DNA from: Natroniella sulfidigena | GTDB lineage: Bacteria > Bacillota > Halanaerobiia > Halobacteroidales > Halobacteroidaceae | DNA length: 64,000 nucleotides | Reading direction: 5' to 3' | Assembly (NCBI RefSeq): GCF_023223645.1 | Contig: NZ_JALKBY010000006.1 | Location: 62,001 to 126,000 of the forward strand | Shown here: one piece after another, positions 3,215-36,410 of the stretch | How positions within the stretch are numbered: position 1 is the first letter of the stretch | How the letters are laid out: every line of letters starts with the position of its first letter | The notes under the pieces: model-generated | What the model was told of the DNA's origin: nothing | The model's input: only the letters and a program-made list of their open reading frames with translations | Database searches by the model: none | Made by a program: the position numbers and the translations under genes

Positions 3215-5023
3215 TCACTTCAAATTGAGTTCTGTTAACTTCTCTGCAGTTGGAATTCCTTCTTCATCCCAACCTCGTTCAGTATAGTAGTTAGGTAATA
3301 ACTGATCCAATTTTGCAACAGAACCTTGATGTGGACCATCAGGTAATGGCTCTTCTAATAATCTCTTAGGCAGTGTATCCTCCTGCGGATCAATTCCAGC
3401 ATCTAGATTAAAGAGTCGCTCTAGATTATAAATTCTATCTCCTGCTGCTAACAACTCTTCTACACTGAGATCAAAACCTGCCGCAACATTAACCAAATCA
3501 CGATAATCTTCAGCTTGTAGAGCAAAGGAAGTAAATAGACACATTCCAATTGAATCAATTACAGCAGTTAAGTCCTGGAAGATCTTAACCCATTCTGGTT
3601 TTCCTTTTAACTCTTGAGGATCAAGCTTTTCTGGCACTCCTAAAACCTCAGGAGAGATCATATATCCTCTTACATGGCAGCCTCCACGATTAGACGTAGC
3701 ATAATTTAATCCTTGACCCTGTACTCCTCGCGGATCATAAGCTGGCAATTCCTGCTTTTTAACACTCATTGAAGCTTCAAGATAACCTTTATTTTCAGCC
3801 AAGCGATATGAACCTTCTGCTAATTGATCACCAAAGCCTTCTCGATAAGCCATTGCTTTTGTATAATAGACAATTGCTTCTGAAGAACCAAACTTCAACT
3901 CAGGGCCATCCTCCAACTCTTCTTGCTCAATATAATCTTTCTCATATAACTCCATTGCTGCTGCTATAGTTGCTCCAGCTGAAATAGTATCAAGACCTAA
4001 CTCATTACACATAAAGTTAGCCTCAGTAATAGCATTTAGATCATTGACCCCACAATCAGCCCCAAAAGACCAACCACTTTCATACTCTGGGCCTTCTCCA
4101 CTTCTACCATTAGGCAACTTAGTATCACGACCACAACTGATTGGACAAGCATAGCAGGCTTTATTACTCTTCAAGTAACCTTTTTCAACCAACGCCTCTC
4201 CAGAAACTTCAGCCACATCTGCAAAGGTTCCTTCTTGGAAGTTTCTAGTTGGATAGATTCCATTCTCATTAATAATATTATCCAATACCTTAGTTCCTAA
4301 TGCAGGTAAACCTTCTCCAGTAACCCCATCTTCTTTAAGGATCTTAGTATGCTTTTTAACTACTTCAATTAAGGCTTGCTTATCATACTCAACCTTCTTT
4401 TCGTTGGCCCGTACAACTACTGCCTTTAAGTTCTTAGAACCCATTACTGCACCAACACCAGTTCTACCAGCTGCTCGATTCTTTTCATTCATAATAGCTG
4501 CAAAGAGAACTTGATTTTCACCCGCTGGGCCAATACAGCTAACTTTAGCCTTTTCATCTCCAACTTGCTGTTGTAAGTAATCAGTTGTTTCAGGAACAGT
4601 CTTACCCCAGACATCTGTAGCATCCTTCAACTCAACTTGACCATCAACAATCGATAAATAGACTGGAGAGTCAGCCTTTCCTTCTAAGATAATCAAATCA
4701 TAACCAGTAAACTTCAACTCTGCACCAAAGAAACCTCCTGAATTACTAGAAGCTATAGTCCCAGTTAATGGCCCTTTAGTAACTACCATATACCTTCCAC
4801 CTGTAGATGCAGAAGTACCTGTCAATAATCCAGTAGCAAAGATCAATTTATTATCTGGACTTAAAGGGTCAACCTTAGGATCAATTTCATCATATAAGAT
4901 CTTCGATGCTAGACCTCTCCCACCTAAATATTCTTTAATTAATTCTTTAGAAATCTCTTCTTCTGTTACTTCTTGATTAGTTAAATTAACTCGTAACATT
5001 AAACCTTCATTTAATTTAGCCAC
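3215..5023 (-). CDS. aor: Tungsten-type aldehyde:ferredoxin oxidoreductase
   Basis: A 602-residue cytoplasmic enzyme of the AOR family, which oxidises aldehydes to carboxylic acids with ferredoxin as acceptor at a tungsten-bispterin centre. The N-terminal GGRGLAS and the TGPL-like/ASSNSGG region (residues 84-97) belong to the pterin-binding half. The 4Fe-4S cluster ligands are C290-x2-C293-x3-C297 and C495 (MCLF). It starts with GTG (5023) behind AAGGAGGAG. Upstream are a sigma-54 promoter (5162-5180) and an AcoR-type activator gene, so expression is probably switched on by an aldehyde- or alcohol-linked signal. It forms an operon with the MoaD-like gene. Confidence 0.95.
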   Translation of the reverse strand: MAKLNEGLMLRVNLTNQEVTEEEISKELIKEYLGGRGLASKILYDEIDPKVDPLSPDNKLIFATGLLTGTSASTGGRYMVVTKGPLTGTIASSNSGGFFGAELKFTGYDLIILEGKADSPVYLSIVDGQVELKDATDVWGKTVPETTDYLQQQVGDEKAKVSCIGPAGENQVLFAAIMNEKNRAAGRTGVGAVMGSKNLKAVVVRANEKKVEYDKQALIEVVKKHTKILKEDGVTGEGLPALGTKVLDNIINENGIYPTRNFQEGTFADVAEVSGEALVEKGYLKSNKACYACPISCGRDTKLPNGRSGEGPEYESGWSFGADCGVNDLNAITEANFMCNELGLDTISAGATIAAAMELYEKDYIEQEELEDGPELKFGSSEAIVYYTKAMAYREGFGDQLAEGSYRLAENKGYLEASMSVKKQELPAYDPRGVQGQGLNYATSNRGGCHVRGYMISPEVLGVPEKLDPQELKGKPEWVKIFQDLTAVIDSIGMCLFTSFALQAEDYRDLVNVAAGFDLSVEELLAAGDRIYNLERLFNLDAGIDPQEDTLPKRLLEEPLPDGPHQGSVAKLDQLLPNYYTERGWDEEGIPTAEKLTELNLK

Positions 5024-11763: not shown

Positions 11764-13098
11764 TTAAGAGTTGCAATTATCTGCTTTACTTATAAAATTA
11801 GGTAAAGTAACACAACCGGTTGCACTAGCAATCACATCTTGTTGAGCTGCTCTAGTATAAATCCCTTTAAATTCTTGATTATACAAAAACAGTCCTAGAA
11901 TATACTTATAAGGCTCAAATTTAAGCTTGCCATCTACAAAGACTGCTAACTCTTGACTAGGTAATGAGCAATATTCTTGGACTAAATAAGTCCCTGGCTC
12001 TATCTTATCTAATTTAGCCTGCCACTCTTGTTCAGTTACATCTTTACCAATCACTACCCCTTGAGCACCATACAAATCTAATGGCTTTAAAACAAAATCT
12101 TCTTGATTCTTTTTAACTTGATTGACTTGCTTATTATTAGTAGGTTGATATTGAAATGTGAGCGGAATATGCTGCTTAATAAATTCTTTTTCAGTTTGCT
12201 CTAAAAAATGAACCTTTTGTTCATCATGCAAAATAGAAAAGATAACCTTATTATGTATGATCTGTGATCTGAGCGGGCCAACAACACAGACATCTTGATT
12301 GCGATAAGCAGCCAAAAAATCCTCTATCTGTTGATAATGCTCCATTAGATCTAAGGTCACTGCCCGCCGATAAATCAAATCAACCCTAAAATCATCCTTA
12401 TATAAGTTATCCCCATCATAACTTAATTCTCTAGGATCAATAATCTGAACCGAATAACCTTTCTGCTCTAATACCTCTTGAAAATACTCAAATTCACTGA
12501 CCATCCCATAACCTTCAAAATCCATAATCCCAATATTAGGTTGCTCTAGTTGGCCACCAAATTGAGAATAATTATCTAGTAGGGTATCTAGCCAACTCTC
12601 TACTAATTCACAATACTCAATTTGATAATCTTCAGCTAAAGTTTTGACTGCTACAGTATCTAAAAAATGTTCTTCTAAGGTATTAGTCTTAACCATCCCT
12701 GAAGAACCATCTGCATTTAACTCACAAAATTTAAAGTCTGTTGGCCCGTGATAAAAGATATCAAAACGAGCCATTGGAAAGTAAGAATCATAGCCAGGAT
12801 CAACTAAATTTAACTCTTCTAACTCCTTAGAAAATCCAAAGTATGATCGAAACTCTTGGTCAGTTAAATATCTATCAACAACCTTCACTAATATCTCAGT
12901 CAGTTGAGCAGTTAATTCTTTAAACTGCTTAATCTCTTTAGCAGTAAAGAAAAAAGGTTGATATAAGAAAGGAATCACTGCCCCTTGGTAGTAGGCAGCT
13001 GAATCCTCAAGCTTATGATATAATAACTGGTAATCCTCAGCATATCTTGCCTCATCTGCTGTTAACAACTCTTGATATACCCGAAATAGTCGATCCAT
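11764..13098 (-). CDS. ATP-grasp ligase, glutathionylspermidine-synthase/circularly permuted type
   Basis: A 444-residue cytoplasmic protein. A pre-ATP-grasp block near 115-140 reads ARFDIFYHG...FKFCELNADGSSG, the acidic/Asn signature seen in glutathionylspermidine-synthase-like ligases. The ATP-grasp part near 330-385 reads VLKPLDLYGAQGVVIG and YLVQEYCSLPS, supplying nucleotide and magnesium ligands. It is not a canonical GshB. The start is 4 bases from the glutamate-cysteine ligase stop, behind GGAGGGAG. Position suggests it adds a second group to gamma-glutamylcysteine, making glutathione or a related thiol; the substrate is not shown by the sequence. Residues near the C-terminus include Cys (SATGCVTLPNF). 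Confidence 0.75.
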   Translation of the reverse strand: MDRLFRVYQELLTADEARYAEDYQLLYHKLEDSAAYYQGAVIPFLYQPFFFTAKEIKQFKELTAQLTEILVKVVDRYLTDQEFRSYFGFSKELEELNLVDPGYDSYFPMARFDIFYHGPTDFKFCELNADGSSGMVKTNTLEEHFLDTVAVKTLAEDYQIEYCELVESWLDTLLDNYSQFGGQLEQPNIGIMDFEGYGMVSEFEYFQEVLEQKGYSVQIIDPRELSYDGDNLYKDDFRVDLIYRRAVTLDLMEHYQQIEDFLAAYRNQDVCVVGPLRSQIIHNKVIFSILHDEQKVHFLEQTEKEFIKQHIPLTFQYQPTNNKQVNQVKKNQEDFVLKPLDLYGAQGVVIGKDVTEQEWQAKLDKIEPGTYLVQEYCSLPSQELAVFVDGKLKFEPYKYILGLFLYNQEFKGIYTRAAQQDVIASATGCVTLPNFISKADNCNS

Positions 13099-13101
13099 CC
13101 T

Positions 13102-14397
13102 CTATTCTCCCTCCAGATAAAGGTTTAAAATATCCCTTTTAAAAGCTTCTGTCCTACCTGCTTGTAACTTAGACTTAATCTGATCAGCTAAAGTCTCTTT
13201 AGAATCAATAATATCAGCTAATGGCTCTAAATAATCGACTTCTGAATCACTAAGACCTACTTTGGCCCACTCCAATAATTGAGCAGCTAAATCTATCAAT
13301 TTATAATCCCCTAACATTGCATCTAAACCATCAACCATACTGTTTTTCCGAGCAGCTAAAACCTCTTCTAAACTGAACCCTTCTACTAACTGATATAACC
13401 TTTCTAAATTCTGTTGATCATAAAATAACCCTTTATATAAGGCTACCATAGCCCAACTCAAATCAGGAGGAATAGAATCTGTCATTCTAATCTCAATAAA
13501 GTGTTTTAACCTGACATCAGGAAAAACCATTGTCAAGATATGTTCTAGTTCTTCACTCCCAAGCTCATCTTCCTCAAAAATCTCTCGACAAGTCTGATCA
13601 CCAGTAGCTAGATATTGATCATTGCTCTTAAGTAGTATTGGTTCTCTAGTTAAGATATACTCAGCGTACTTTCTATAACCAAAATCTTCAGCAAAAGCTT
13701 CCTCAATAATTCCTGTTCGAGCAGGATCAGTATTATCCCAGATATGTGTTCGTACAGTCTGCTGAGGATAAACCTCCCCTTCAAAAACAGGAGCATTATC
13801 TGTTAAGATTGCAAAGAGAGGAGATAAAGCATTAGCAATTCTAAATTTATGTATAAAGTCCGATTCATCTTCATAATCCAAAGCTACCTGTAAAGCTGCT
13901 GTTCCTTTCATCATATTATGGGCACAGCTTCCTTTGCTTTCTAAATAATTTGACATAATTTGATATCTCTGTTTAGGATTCCACTCTATCTGATCAATCT
14001 TACTTTTAGGCTGATAACCAGTTGTGATCAAGTAGTAACCTTTCTTATCTAAGATTGGAATTAGATCTGTTAAGAAAGTAGAATAGACTTCTTCTAGCTT
14101 CTTAATCTCCTTCTGCGGGTGGCTACTGGCCTCTATTTGCCCTCCTGGTTCTAAAGTGACCTCTGCCTGCTGAGAAGTTAAACCTACTAAATGGCCATTC
14201 TCTTCATTTTTCTCCCACCCTTTCTGGGCCAACTCTTCTAAAATATCTTCTATTCCATCATCTTCTCGATAATCAATTGCTCGCCAGCTAGATTGCTCCA
14301 CTATAAAATGCTCAAACTCTACTCCTAGCTTCTGCTGATTAGTCTCTCCTGCTTTAAAAAAACTTTCTAATTTATCTAATTGTTCTTGATACTCCAC
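13102..14397 (-). CDS. gshA: Glutamate-cysteine ligase (GCS2/plant-type)
   Basis: About 431 residues from GTG 14397, which has GGGGTGA five bases upstream; a TTG at 14430 opens the same frame but lacks a site. It condenses glutamate and cysteine with ATP to gamma-glutamylcysteine. Recognisable blocks are KLGVEFEHFIV, VTLEPGGQIEASSHP, MMKGTAALQVALDY, and IEIRMTDSIPP, all of the GCS2 family fold. It lies between a GloB-like hydrolase gene and an ATP-grasp gene with nearly no spacing, so all three are one transcript. Glutathione synthesis is uncommon in anaerobic Firmicutes, which makes the cluster noteworthy. Confidence 0.88.
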   Translation of the reverse strand: MEYQEQLDKLESFFKAGETNQQKLGVEFEHFIVEQSSWRAIDYREDDGIEDILEELAQKGWEKNEENGHLVGLTSQQAEVTLEPGGQIEASSHPQKEIKKLEEVYSTFLTDLIPILDKKGYYLITTGYQPKSKIDQIEWNPKQRYQIMSNYLESKGSCAHNMMKGTAALQVALDYEDESDFIHKFRIANALSPLFAILTDNAPVFEGEVYPQQTVRTHIWDNTDPARTGIIEEAFAEDFGYRKYAEYILTREPILLKSNDQYLATGDQTCREIFEEDELGSEELEHILTMVFPDVRLKHFIEIRMTDSIPPDLSWAMVALYKGLFYDQQNLERLYQLVEGFSLEEVLAARKNSMVDGLDAMLGDYKLIDLAAQLLEWAKVGLSDSEVDYLEPLADIIDSKETLADQIKSKLQAGRTEAFKRDILNLYLEGE

Positions 14398-14430
14398 CTT
14401 CTTCACCCCATTTACAAAAATATAAATCAA

Positions 14431-15063
14431 TTACTTCTTTAACATATCCTTTACAATCCGATTTCTCTTTCTTTCTCTCCCTAAAGTACTCTGACCAAGA
14501 TGTCCTGGATAAACTTCCAACTGATCATCTAACTTCATTACTTTTTGGGAAATTGAATCAGCTAACTGCTGATAACTTCCTCCAGTTAAATCTGTTCTGC
14601 CTACTGAACCTTTAAATAAAGTATCTCCAGTTAATAAAATATCATCTATCTTAATACAAATCCCTCCTGGAGTATGCCCTGGAGTATGAATTATCTCTAA
14701 TTTTAACTGACCTACTTTTATCTTTTCCCCATCTTGCAATAATTTATCAGCCTCAATACTGACACTTGGCACTGAAGGACTACTCGATAAATTCAACTCA
14801 GGTTTAAGTAATCCTTCCGCATCTGCTTCATGAATCCAAACAGGCACTTGCAACTCCTGTTGTAAATCTTCAACAGCTAAAATATGATCGTAATGATAAT
14901 GAGTTAAGACTATAGCTTTAATGTTCAACTCTTCTTGTTCAATATAATTAAGAATAGTATCCTTACCACCACCTGGATCTACAATTATTCCTGCTCCTTC
15001 TTCATCAGTGACGAGATAACAGTTAACATTTCCGATTCCTACTTTGAAATTTTTTAATTTCAT
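14431..15063 (-). CDS. Metallo-beta-lactamase-fold hydrolase, glyoxalase II-like
   Basis: A 210-residue hydrolase with the metal motif THYHYDH (H55, H57, D59, H60), a third histidine in HTPGHTPGG (about 131-139), the bridging aspartate in TGDTLF, and the final histidine in YPGHLG. This pattern is that of GloB and related thioesterases; the short length without the C-terminal helical GloB domain places it among the compact MBL-fold relatives. It heads the operon with glutamate-cysteine ligase and ATP-grasp, and a divergent glyoxalase I lies 362 bases away, which supports a role in hydrolysing S-lactoyl-thiol. Start ATG is behind GGGAGG. Confidence 0.85.
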   Translation of the reverse strand: MKLKNFKVGIGNVNCYLVTDEEGAGIIVDPGGGKDTILNYIEQEELNIKAIVLTHYHYDHILAVEDLQQELQVPVWIHEADAEGLLKPELNLSSSPSVPSVSIEADKLLQDGEKIKVGQLKLEIIHTPGHTPGGICIKIDDILLTGDTLFKGSVGRTDLTGGSYQQLADSISQKVMKLDDQLEVYPGHLGQSTLGRERKRNRIVKDMLKK

Positions 15064-15082
15064 TTTCTATTCCTCCCTTTAT

Positions 15083-15311
15083 TGATATTTAGTGGCACTT
15101 TGCCACTAAATATCAGTGTACAGTTTACGGTAGATATGGTTTTTATGGATTTCACGAAGGGTCTTGATAAAGACCCGTAGGTACAGTTAACAGTTAAAAG
15201 CATTAAATCCTTAAAATCAAAAACCACATGAGCTTGTAAGTATAAGTCTTTTTAGAGATCTTTTTTTATTTTTGAATTTTAACTGTAAACTGTTCACTGT
15301 TAACTGTCAAC
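15083..15311. repeat. Fold-back repeat filling the GloB operon leader, ACAGTTTAC arm type
   Basis: Starts with a perfect palindrome TGATATTTAGTGGCA-CTT-complement (15083-15115), continues with GTGTACAGTTTACGGT units, a nested small hairpin (15136-15181, stem GGGTCTT/AAGACCC), and closes with AACTGTAAACTGTTCACTG units. It lies between the likely promoter (15330-15335 -10) and the Shine-Dalgarno, so it should be transcribed as a roughly 260-base structured leader. Confidence 0.75.
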
Positions 15312-15329
15312 TATTATTTACTACCCCCT

Positions 15330-15338
15330 ATTATAACA
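15330..15338 (-). promoter_or_regulatory. Extended -10 promoter for the GloB-GshA-ATP-grasp operon
   Basis: On the minus strand TG-T-TATAAT forms an extended -10 element (-10 at 15330-15335); the -35 region is weak. It is back to back with the GloA promoter. Confidence 0.5.
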
Positions 15339-15361
15339 GCATTCCAAATAAGAATAAAGGT

Positions 15362-15390
15362 TTGACATCTAATTAATTATTTATTAGAAT
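15362..15390 (+). promoter_or_regulatory. Sigma-A promoter of gloA
   Basis: Consensus -35 TTGACA (15362-15367), 17-base spacer, -10 TAGAAT (15385-15390). It lies about 36 bases before the GloA start and is followed by AGGAGG. Confidence 0.8.
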
Positions 15391-15425
15391 GTAAGTTAAA
15401 TAATTCTATTCTTAGGAGGTGCCAC

Positions 15426-15815
15426 ATGTCTCAAGATTATAAGTTTGTTCATTCTTGTATTAGAGTTCTTGATTTAGAAAAATCAATCGAATTTTACCAA
15501 CAAGCATTAGGATTAGAAATAGCCAGAAAAAGAGATTTTCCTGAATATGAATTCACTTTAGTCTATCTTAAGAGTAAAACAGGAGATTTCGAAATTGAAC
15601 TTACATATAACTATGACCGAAAAGAGCCTTATACAATTGGAGATGGCTACAGCCATATTGCTGTTACCGTTGATGATTTAGAAAGCTCTTATCAACGTCA
15701 CCAAAAGTTAGGATATGAAGTTAGCGATATTAATAGCCTCAGTGAAGAAGCAAGTGGAGGCTATTACTTCCTAACAGACCCTGATGGGTATCGTACTGAA
15801 ATCATTCAAAAATAA
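15426..15815 (+). CDS. gloA: Glyoxalase I (lactoylglutathione lyase)
   Basis: A 129-residue vicinal-oxygen-chelate protein. The four metal ligands expected for GloA are visible: H9, E58 (ELTYN block), H77 (YSHIAV) and E125 (YRTEI). The length is close to the 135-residue E. coli enzyme. It isomerises the hemithioacetal of methylglyoxal and a thiol to S-lactoyl-thiol. It is the only plus-strand gene in this part, has its own TTGACA promoter and AGGAGGT site, and is divergent from the GloB-like/thiol biosynthesis operon, which together would form a complete methylglyoxal detoxification module. A terminator follows. Confidence 0.93.
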   Translation: MSQDYKFVHSCIRVLDLEKSIEFYQQALGLEIARKRDFPEYEFTLVYLKSKTGDFEIELTYNYDRKEPYTIGDGYSHIAVTVDDLESSYQRHQKLGYEVSDINSLSEEASGGYYFLTDPDGYRTEIIQK

Positions 15816-36226: not shown

Positions 36227-36410
36227 AGCAGTGTACAGTTAACAGTTGACGGTTGACAATTAAAAACCTAAGTTCAAAGAAGCTCTAAGGCTATAGATAT
36301 AAGACTTTTCATAGTTCTTAAGCTTTTTTAAGATTTTGATTCATAACTGTAAACTGTAAACCGTAAACTGTCAACTTAATATTGTGGCACTTTTATGCCA
36401 CAATATTGTA
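36227..36410. repeat. Composite fold-back repeat, ACAGTTAAC arm type, with joined end
   Basis: GTGTACAGTTAACAGTTGAC (36233 onward) pairs with AACTGTAAACTGTAAACCG units on the right. The right end has a perfect 12-6-12 hairpin AATATTGTGGCA (36378-36407), which looks like an element of two joined termini. It lies between the ICMT-like and DUF2933 genes. Confidence 0.7.

Follow-up and report, generated by a model that had tools for sequence, protein, structure and literature searches.

A plant-type glutamate-cysteine ligase gene paired with the gene of a candidate glutathione synthetase of the ATP-grasp type in Natroniella sulfidigena and other anaerobic Firmicutes

Introduction

Which second enzyme would act on the product of a glutamate-cysteine ligase (GCL) in an anaerobic salt-lake bacterium of the Firmicutes? 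The question is raised by a locus of Natroniella sulfidigena (assembly GCF_023223645.1, contig NZ_JALKBY010000006.1), analysed here within a stretch of 64,000 nt (the window; contig positions 62,001-126,000, forward strand), in which a plant-type GCL gene is followed by a gene for a 444-residue ATP-grasp protein. An earlier note, made from the sequence of the window, had described these two genes together with gloA and a gloB-like gene as a complete thiol-glyoxalase module, and all four genes were found where it had placed them. We show here that the core unit is the GCL/ATP-grasp pair and not the four-gene module. Most anaerobic Firmicutes are not known to synthesize glutathione. Judging from the comparisons described below, the ATP-grasp protein is probably an unannotated glutathione synthetase, which would couple gamma-glutamylcysteine (gamma-Glu-Cys) with a small amine, glycine being the likeliest.

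Linkage of the GCL and ATP-grasp Genes

In 13 of 13 genomes examined from its order, the GCL gene is immediately followed by the ATP-grasp gene, as in the window genome, whose nearest relative is Natroniella acetigena (ATP-grasp proteins 79% identical). From 148 relatives detected in a scan of 84,980 species genomes, 80 were retained, six of them from genomes that are also in the order set. Four of the 80 loci end at a contig edge, which leaves 76 scorable loci, and a GCL gene is located directly upstream on the same strand in 66 of these, across the Firmicutes (64 clean loci, one with a broken ATP-grasp frame, L071, and one with a split GCL gene, L076). The earlier note had named homologues occurring mostly away from GCL genes as grounds against its proposal; in both surveys they occur mostly beside them.

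The same association was seen in a phylum sample of 119 genomes. The ATP-grasp gene (threshold E < 1e-100) is present in nine, each with a strong GCS2 gene next to it, and a GCS2 gene of comparable strength occurs in just one further genome (Fisher p ~1e-12, relatedness ignored). In another class, that of G106, the two genes also occur together in four of four genomes, two of which are already among the 119. The distances of GCL and ATP-grasp proteins are correlated over 61 loci (Mantel r 0.84; highest of 2000 permutations, 0.19), much of which is expected from shared descent alone.

On the Selenomonas plasmid pSRC2, a GCL-family gene is followed by a MATE transporter gene and then by an ATP-grasp gene whose product is 34% identical to the window protein and annotated as "hypothetical protein." The MATE efflux transporter between the two (L115, 3168-4901) may serve to export the thiol, either free or conjugated. 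Phage matching, carried out as a test of gene mobility by phage, returned none. Two GCL frames have long N-terminal extensions (L090, 79-1608, 509 aa, with a weak DUF2007 match; L091, 2184-4325, 713 aa), which represent either a fusion or a wrong start. In four Anaerococcus loci (L097, L099, L104, L105) the ATP-grasp gene has no adjacent GCL gene and the same four upstream neighbors.

Family, Fold, and Residues of the ATP-grasp Protein

The earlier note had assigned the ATP-grasp protein to the glutathionylspermidine-synthase or circularly permuted type, and profile searches bear this out. The protein passes PF03738 GSP_synth (51.4 bits; gathering cut-off 29.3) and PF14403 (40.6 bits; cut-off 32), while it stays under the GshB thresholds, both for TIGR01380 (11.5 against 299 bits) and for PF02955 GSH-S_ATP (14.4 against 23 bits, a weak partial match). 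No eukaryotic glutathione synthetase (GSS) model was among its Pfam matches, searched up to E = 1.

The structure predicted by AlphaFold2 from an alignment of 59 sequences (pLDDT 93.7, pTM 0.92) shows the ATP-grasp fold in the circularly permuted form that is found in eukaryotic glutathione synthetases, YgiC/YjfC, and GspS. The top ranks of Foldseek were human and potato glutathione synthetases, Cp1B, a putative glutathionylspermidine synthase, yeast GSS, YgiC, and GspS, with E-values down to 1e-18 for the glutathione synthetases. The VIA-align Z values were ~31 for YgiC/YjfC, 29.6 for GspS, 29.1 for soybean homoglutathione synthetase, 28.1 for human GSS, and 27.9 for Cp1B, as against only 9.5 for Escherichia coli GshB (1gsa), with which 215 residues of the C-terminal part, half of the chain, were aligned. 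Because the top Z values are so close, the predicted fold by itself does not separate a glutathione synthetase from a spermidine ligase.

The catalytic residues R111, D113, E126, N128, K284, K338, Q374, and R416, and also P339, are invariant in 59 of 59 relatives and kept in the alignment with E. coli GspS and YgiC; R316, D318, E330, N332, K498, K533, and R598 of GspS correspond to R111, D113, E126, N128, K284, K338, and R416, respectively. A second set of residues (R84, G131, S133, D193, E202, Y243, R244, R245, and G274) shows no variation across the 59 relatives and the Selenomonas protein, but is mostly different in GspS, YgiC, and the homologs of Pantoea and Mesorhizobium, the latter two being without a listed GCL neighbor. 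We propose that gamma-Glu-Cys is bound by the residues of this second set; in human GSS, S151 and R267, at what we take to be equivalent places, bind this substrate. The segment WKTWAWE of GspS (FKLYPWE in YgiC), which presumably matters for polyamine use, is replaced by YRRxVT in the GCL-linked family (YRRAVT in the window protein), with YRR invariant. The last loop has I423, then S/A/G, then mostly S/G, so that most of the 59 members have small residues here. In eukaryotic enzymes the corresponding loop sets the size of the nucleophile, with small residues in the glycine-using plant enzymes.

GCL, Other Thiol Routes, and Spermidine Supply

The plant-type GCL of the earlier note was recovered by the Pfam scan (PF04107, 111.9 bits) and by matches of the GCL family profile to plant GCL structures (E ~3e-73, over profile positions 8-410). 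Because it scores 268.9 bits on TIGR01436, the plant GCL model, under the equivalog cut-off of 463.15, the protein is classed by sequence as a bacterial relative of plant GCL, not as a plant equivalog. It is the product of the sole GCS2 gene in the window genome (2.63 Mb, 98.7% complete).

A canonical gshB or gshF elsewhere, which would have told against the earlier proposal, was also considered and rejected; no gshB, no gshF, and no GSH-S_ATP match was found in the window genome. The PF02955 matches in the pair-bearing genomes of the phylum are weak (31 bits or less); most are in frames of ~880-940 aa, which is the size of cyanophycin synthetase, and one further match comes from the ATP-grasp gene. 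Bacillithiol was rejected as the thiol of the window organism, since none of the eight genomes of its family has bshC. BshC is present in four of five genomes of the sister family (G001, G003, G004, and G005), which also carry the GCL/ATP-grasp pair, and two thiol systems may coexist in these bacteria.

No spermidine synthase over the cut-off was found in the window genome (one match, 20.3 bits against 22.9), and there were zero matches to the spermidine synthase family in N. acetigena and three other pair-bearing genomes of the order. With no clear spermidine synthase in the window genome and none in four genomes with the pair, a spermidine conjugate is an unlikely product.

Proposed Pathway and Alternatives

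The pathway that we infer for the pair, with its substrate, nucleophile, product, and physiological role, runs as follows. GCL would join glutamate and cysteine to gamma-Glu-Cys. The ATP-grasp enzyme would use ATP to convert the cysteine carboxylate into an acyl phosphate. The RxD...ExN motif and Mg2+ would hold this intermediate for attack by a small amine, most likely glycine, to give glutathione. Such an enzyme would be a bacterial glutathione synthetase built on the permuted fold of its eukaryotic counterpart and not on that of GshB. The thiol would feed redox and detoxification enzymes, here including the adjacent GloA and GloB, which would clear methylglyoxal. Comparative evidence, namely the lack of gshB and gshF and the linkage to GCL, supports the earlier proposal that a glutathionylspermidine synthase-like ATP-grasp enzyme takes the place of GshB in completing a thiol built on gamma-Glu-Cys. 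Nothing was found to indicate the uncommon cofactor that had also been suggested, and ordinary glutathione is the simplest product. Glycine is favored because spermidine is unlikely and the residues of the last loop are small, and it takes perhaps by far the larger share of our confidence in the pathway.

Several points weigh against a glutathione synthetase. The identity between the ATP-grasp protein and enzymes of known function is ~15%, and the residue correspondence to human GSS is tentative. Ten of the 76 loci (L052, L056, L058, L065, L072, L097, L099, L102, L104, and L105) are without an adjacent plant-type GCL gene, and two genomes, G092 and G038, have a high-scoring member of the GloA subfamily without a GCL or ATP-grasp gene. 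A literature search found no report of glutathione in these organisms. Searches on the pair, on glutathione in Halanaerobiales, and on CAC1539/CAC1540 returned nothing on the pairing, and an earlier prediction is still possible.

The same pathway might use an amine other than glycine to give gamma-Glu-Cys-X, where X is beta-alanine, serine, alanine, or another small amine, the product being either a new thiol or one resembling homoglutathione. Homoglutathione synthetase shares the fold, at a Z value (29.1) that is little different, the ATP-grasp enzyme is remote from every characterized enzyme, and Cp1B, of related fold, accepts bulky amino acids (PMC12568646). We nevertheless judge this variant unlikely, as the last loop (I423, S/A/G, mostly S/G) favors a small amine and the adjacent GloA belongs to a lactoylglutathione lyase family. 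In much the same way, it is a minor possibility, to be kept in mind, that the pair provides anaerobic Firmicutes with a major low-molecular-weight thiol other than glutathione, an undescribed gamma-Glu-Cys-X made by a further lineage of enzymes that resemble glutathione synthetases.

The best curated family, PF03738, and the top Z values, those of YgiC/YjfC and GspS, would suit a glutathionylspermidine synthetase or peptide-spermidine ligase, which would conjugate spermidine with gamma-Glu-Cys or glutathione in the manner of GspS, YgiC, and YjfC. This is most improbable in view of the lack of a clear spermidine synthase described above (spermidine may still come from uptake or carboxyspermidine routes), the YRRxVT segment, the lack of an amidase domain, and the lack of a GshB to supply glutathione for conjugation. 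It is also very improbable that the ATP-grasp enzyme modifies a peptide, protein, or natural product and merely travels with GCL, the thiol being gamma-Glu-Cys itself as in haloarchaea, even if there is a precedent in that gamma-Glu-Cys is a major thiol of halobacteria, according to a review (PMC7278568) that cites Newton and Javor (1985). Plasmids of Pantoea and Mesorhizobium encode distant homologs (20-24% identity) for which no GCL is listed as a neighbor, and that of Pantoea is within a biosynthesis-like cluster. On the other side, the linkage is kept across several classes and onto a plasmid, co-occurrence is strict, and the pocket residues are invariant in the GCL-linked family and mostly not outside it. 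Moreover, in Formimonas (L058, 9011-10552) a GCL of another family (PF04262, 460 bits) is encoded 1.7 kb from the ATP-grasp gene, possibly a non-orthologous replacement of the first enzyme.

If the pair makes glutathione or a sister thiol, annotation misses a thiol pathway in scores of species of Halanaerobiales, Tissierellia, Alkaliphilus-type Clostridia, Lachnospiraceae, and Anaerococcus; some distant homologs are annotated as "glutathionylspermidine synthase family protein." Were the product glutathione, bacteria would offer a clear example of its synthesis by an enzyme with the fold of the eukaryotic synthetase. What is new is probably the choice of the second enzyme, within an otherwise known route to glutathione.

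Glyoxalase Genes and Intergenic Region

The features of the locus are listed in Table 1. The minus-strand gloB, GCL, and ATP-grasp genes touch or are separated by 3-base gaps, an operon-like spacing; the gap from the GCL stop codon to the ATP-grasp ATG is 3 bases, which corrects the 4 given earlier. The GCL start is ambiguous, in that a TTG at 14430 abuts the gloB stop codon and a GTG further in suits the alignment better.

Table 1. Features of the Natroniella sulfidigena locus (positions in the window).
Feature	Position	Strand	Basis
ATP-grasp amide ligase, GSS/GspS circularly permuted fold (predicted), 444 aa; predicted gamma-glutamylcysteine:amine (glycine) ligase	11764..13098	-	PF03738, predicted model, fold matches, catalytic residues
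Plant-type GCL, GCS2 family, start codon uncertain	13102..14430	-	PF04107, TIGR01436 (below cut-off), plant GCL structures
GloB-like metallo-beta-lactamase-fold hydrolase, 210 aa, short form	14431..15063	-	PF00753, PDB matches 7l0b and 2xf4, metal ligands
Divergent intergenic region, promoter-like sites on both sides and hairpin	15064..15425	.	Promoter-like motifs, inverted repeat
GloA, glyoxalase I, divergent from operon	15426..15815	+	NF050074, PDB matches including E. coli GloA 1f9z, ligands
fabI-like gene, 116 bases downstream of ATP-grasp gene	11647-10859	-	Position

GloA scores 183.7 bits on NF050074 (cut-off 165) and has, by motif, the metal ligands H9, E58, H77, and E125, in agreement with the earlier description of a divergent GloA with all four ligands. 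The GloB-like hydrolase (PF00753, 130 bits) is of the metallo-beta-lactamase fold, as noted earlier, and has complete metal motifs (HxHxDH with H55/H57/D59/H60, then H130, D147, and H188), but it is a short form and not a full-length GloB (TIGR03413, 97.9 bits; cut-off 200.8).

The complete glyoxalase module is a local arrangement: all its genes are present here, while in the order GloA is intact beside the pair in 10 of the 13 genomes; N. acetigena retains a remnant of it, two genomes lack it locally, and GloB is local in five of the 13. In loci outside the order, GloA was not seen beside the pair. The four-gene module was rejected as a conserved unit because GloA and GloB come and go; they are frequent but dispensable neighbors of the pair. 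The N. acetigena remnant (L015, 4937-5056) has only residues ~80-129 readable, with GCL and the ATP-grasp gene intact.

The GloA subfamily is enriched with the pair in the phylum sample (4/9 against 2/110 genomes, p 2e-4). Because G092 and G038 carry it without the pair, the subfamily is no proof of the pair, and it was rejected as a strict marker of the pathway. These two genomes each have a RimK/LysX-sized protein that matches GSH-S_ATP at 50-58 bits. Since the local presence of GloA and GloB varies and the GloA subfamily is not restricted to pair-bearing genomes, it is plausible that methylglyoxal removal is a local use of the thiol and not the reason for the pair.

In the intergenic region, promoter-like sites were found on both strands, TTGACA-17-TAGAAT at 15362-15390 (+) and TTGACA-17-TACAGT at 15310-15282 (-), in an overall number not above that in shuffled sequences. 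A 15-bp perfect inverted repeat with a 3-nt loop (15083-15115) stands directly before the gloB ribosome-binding site and is a possible 5' untranslated region structure or operator. N. acetigena has a hairpin at the same place (L015, ~4647-4673) with a different sequence, TTGATATAAAGC/GCTTTATATCAA, and the pairing is therefore kept despite changes of the letters. No Rfam match was found in the window. Several imperfect inverted repeats around ACAGTTAACAGTT at 15111-15307, with short copies of the motif also near 36236 and 58747, are perhaps a small repeat element.

Comparison with Known Systems

Bacterial GshB and the bifunctional GshF would carry out the same reaction as that expected of the ATP-grasp step and likewise work with a GCL, whereas the window enzyme has a different ATP-grasp arrangement (11.5 bits against the NCBIfam cut-off of 299). 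The synthetase domain of E. coli GspS and the peptide-spermidine ligases YgiC and YjfC share with it PF03738, the predicted fold (Z 29.6-31.1), and all catalytic residues; the window enzyme differs from them in having no amidase domain, in its YRRxVT segment, in its linkage to GCL, and in that several of its hosts are without a clear spermidine synthase.

At the sequence level, the family profile matched fungal Cp1B, of E-64 biosynthesis (PDB 9cjn), better than any other PDB entry (E 5.5e-7), and the RxD...ExN motif is common to both. Cp1B joins an acid to an amino acid, which is the nucleophile, and changes of R139, D141, E163, or N165 abolish its activity (PMC12568646). It differs in its acid substrate, trans-epoxysuccinate, and in belonging to a fungal natural product cluster.

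The eukaryotic-type glutathione and homoglutathione synthetases (human 2hgs, potato 5oes, and soybean 3kal) have the same whole-chain fold as that predicted here (Z 28-29, ~400 residues aligned), with gamma-Glu-Cys as the expected common substrate and a plant-type GCL as the partner. The window enzyme differs from them in sequence (~13-15% identity), comes from an anaerobic member of the Firmicutes, and, apart from the weak partial GSH-S_ATP match, is unrecognized by the Pfam glutathione synthetase models up to E = 1.

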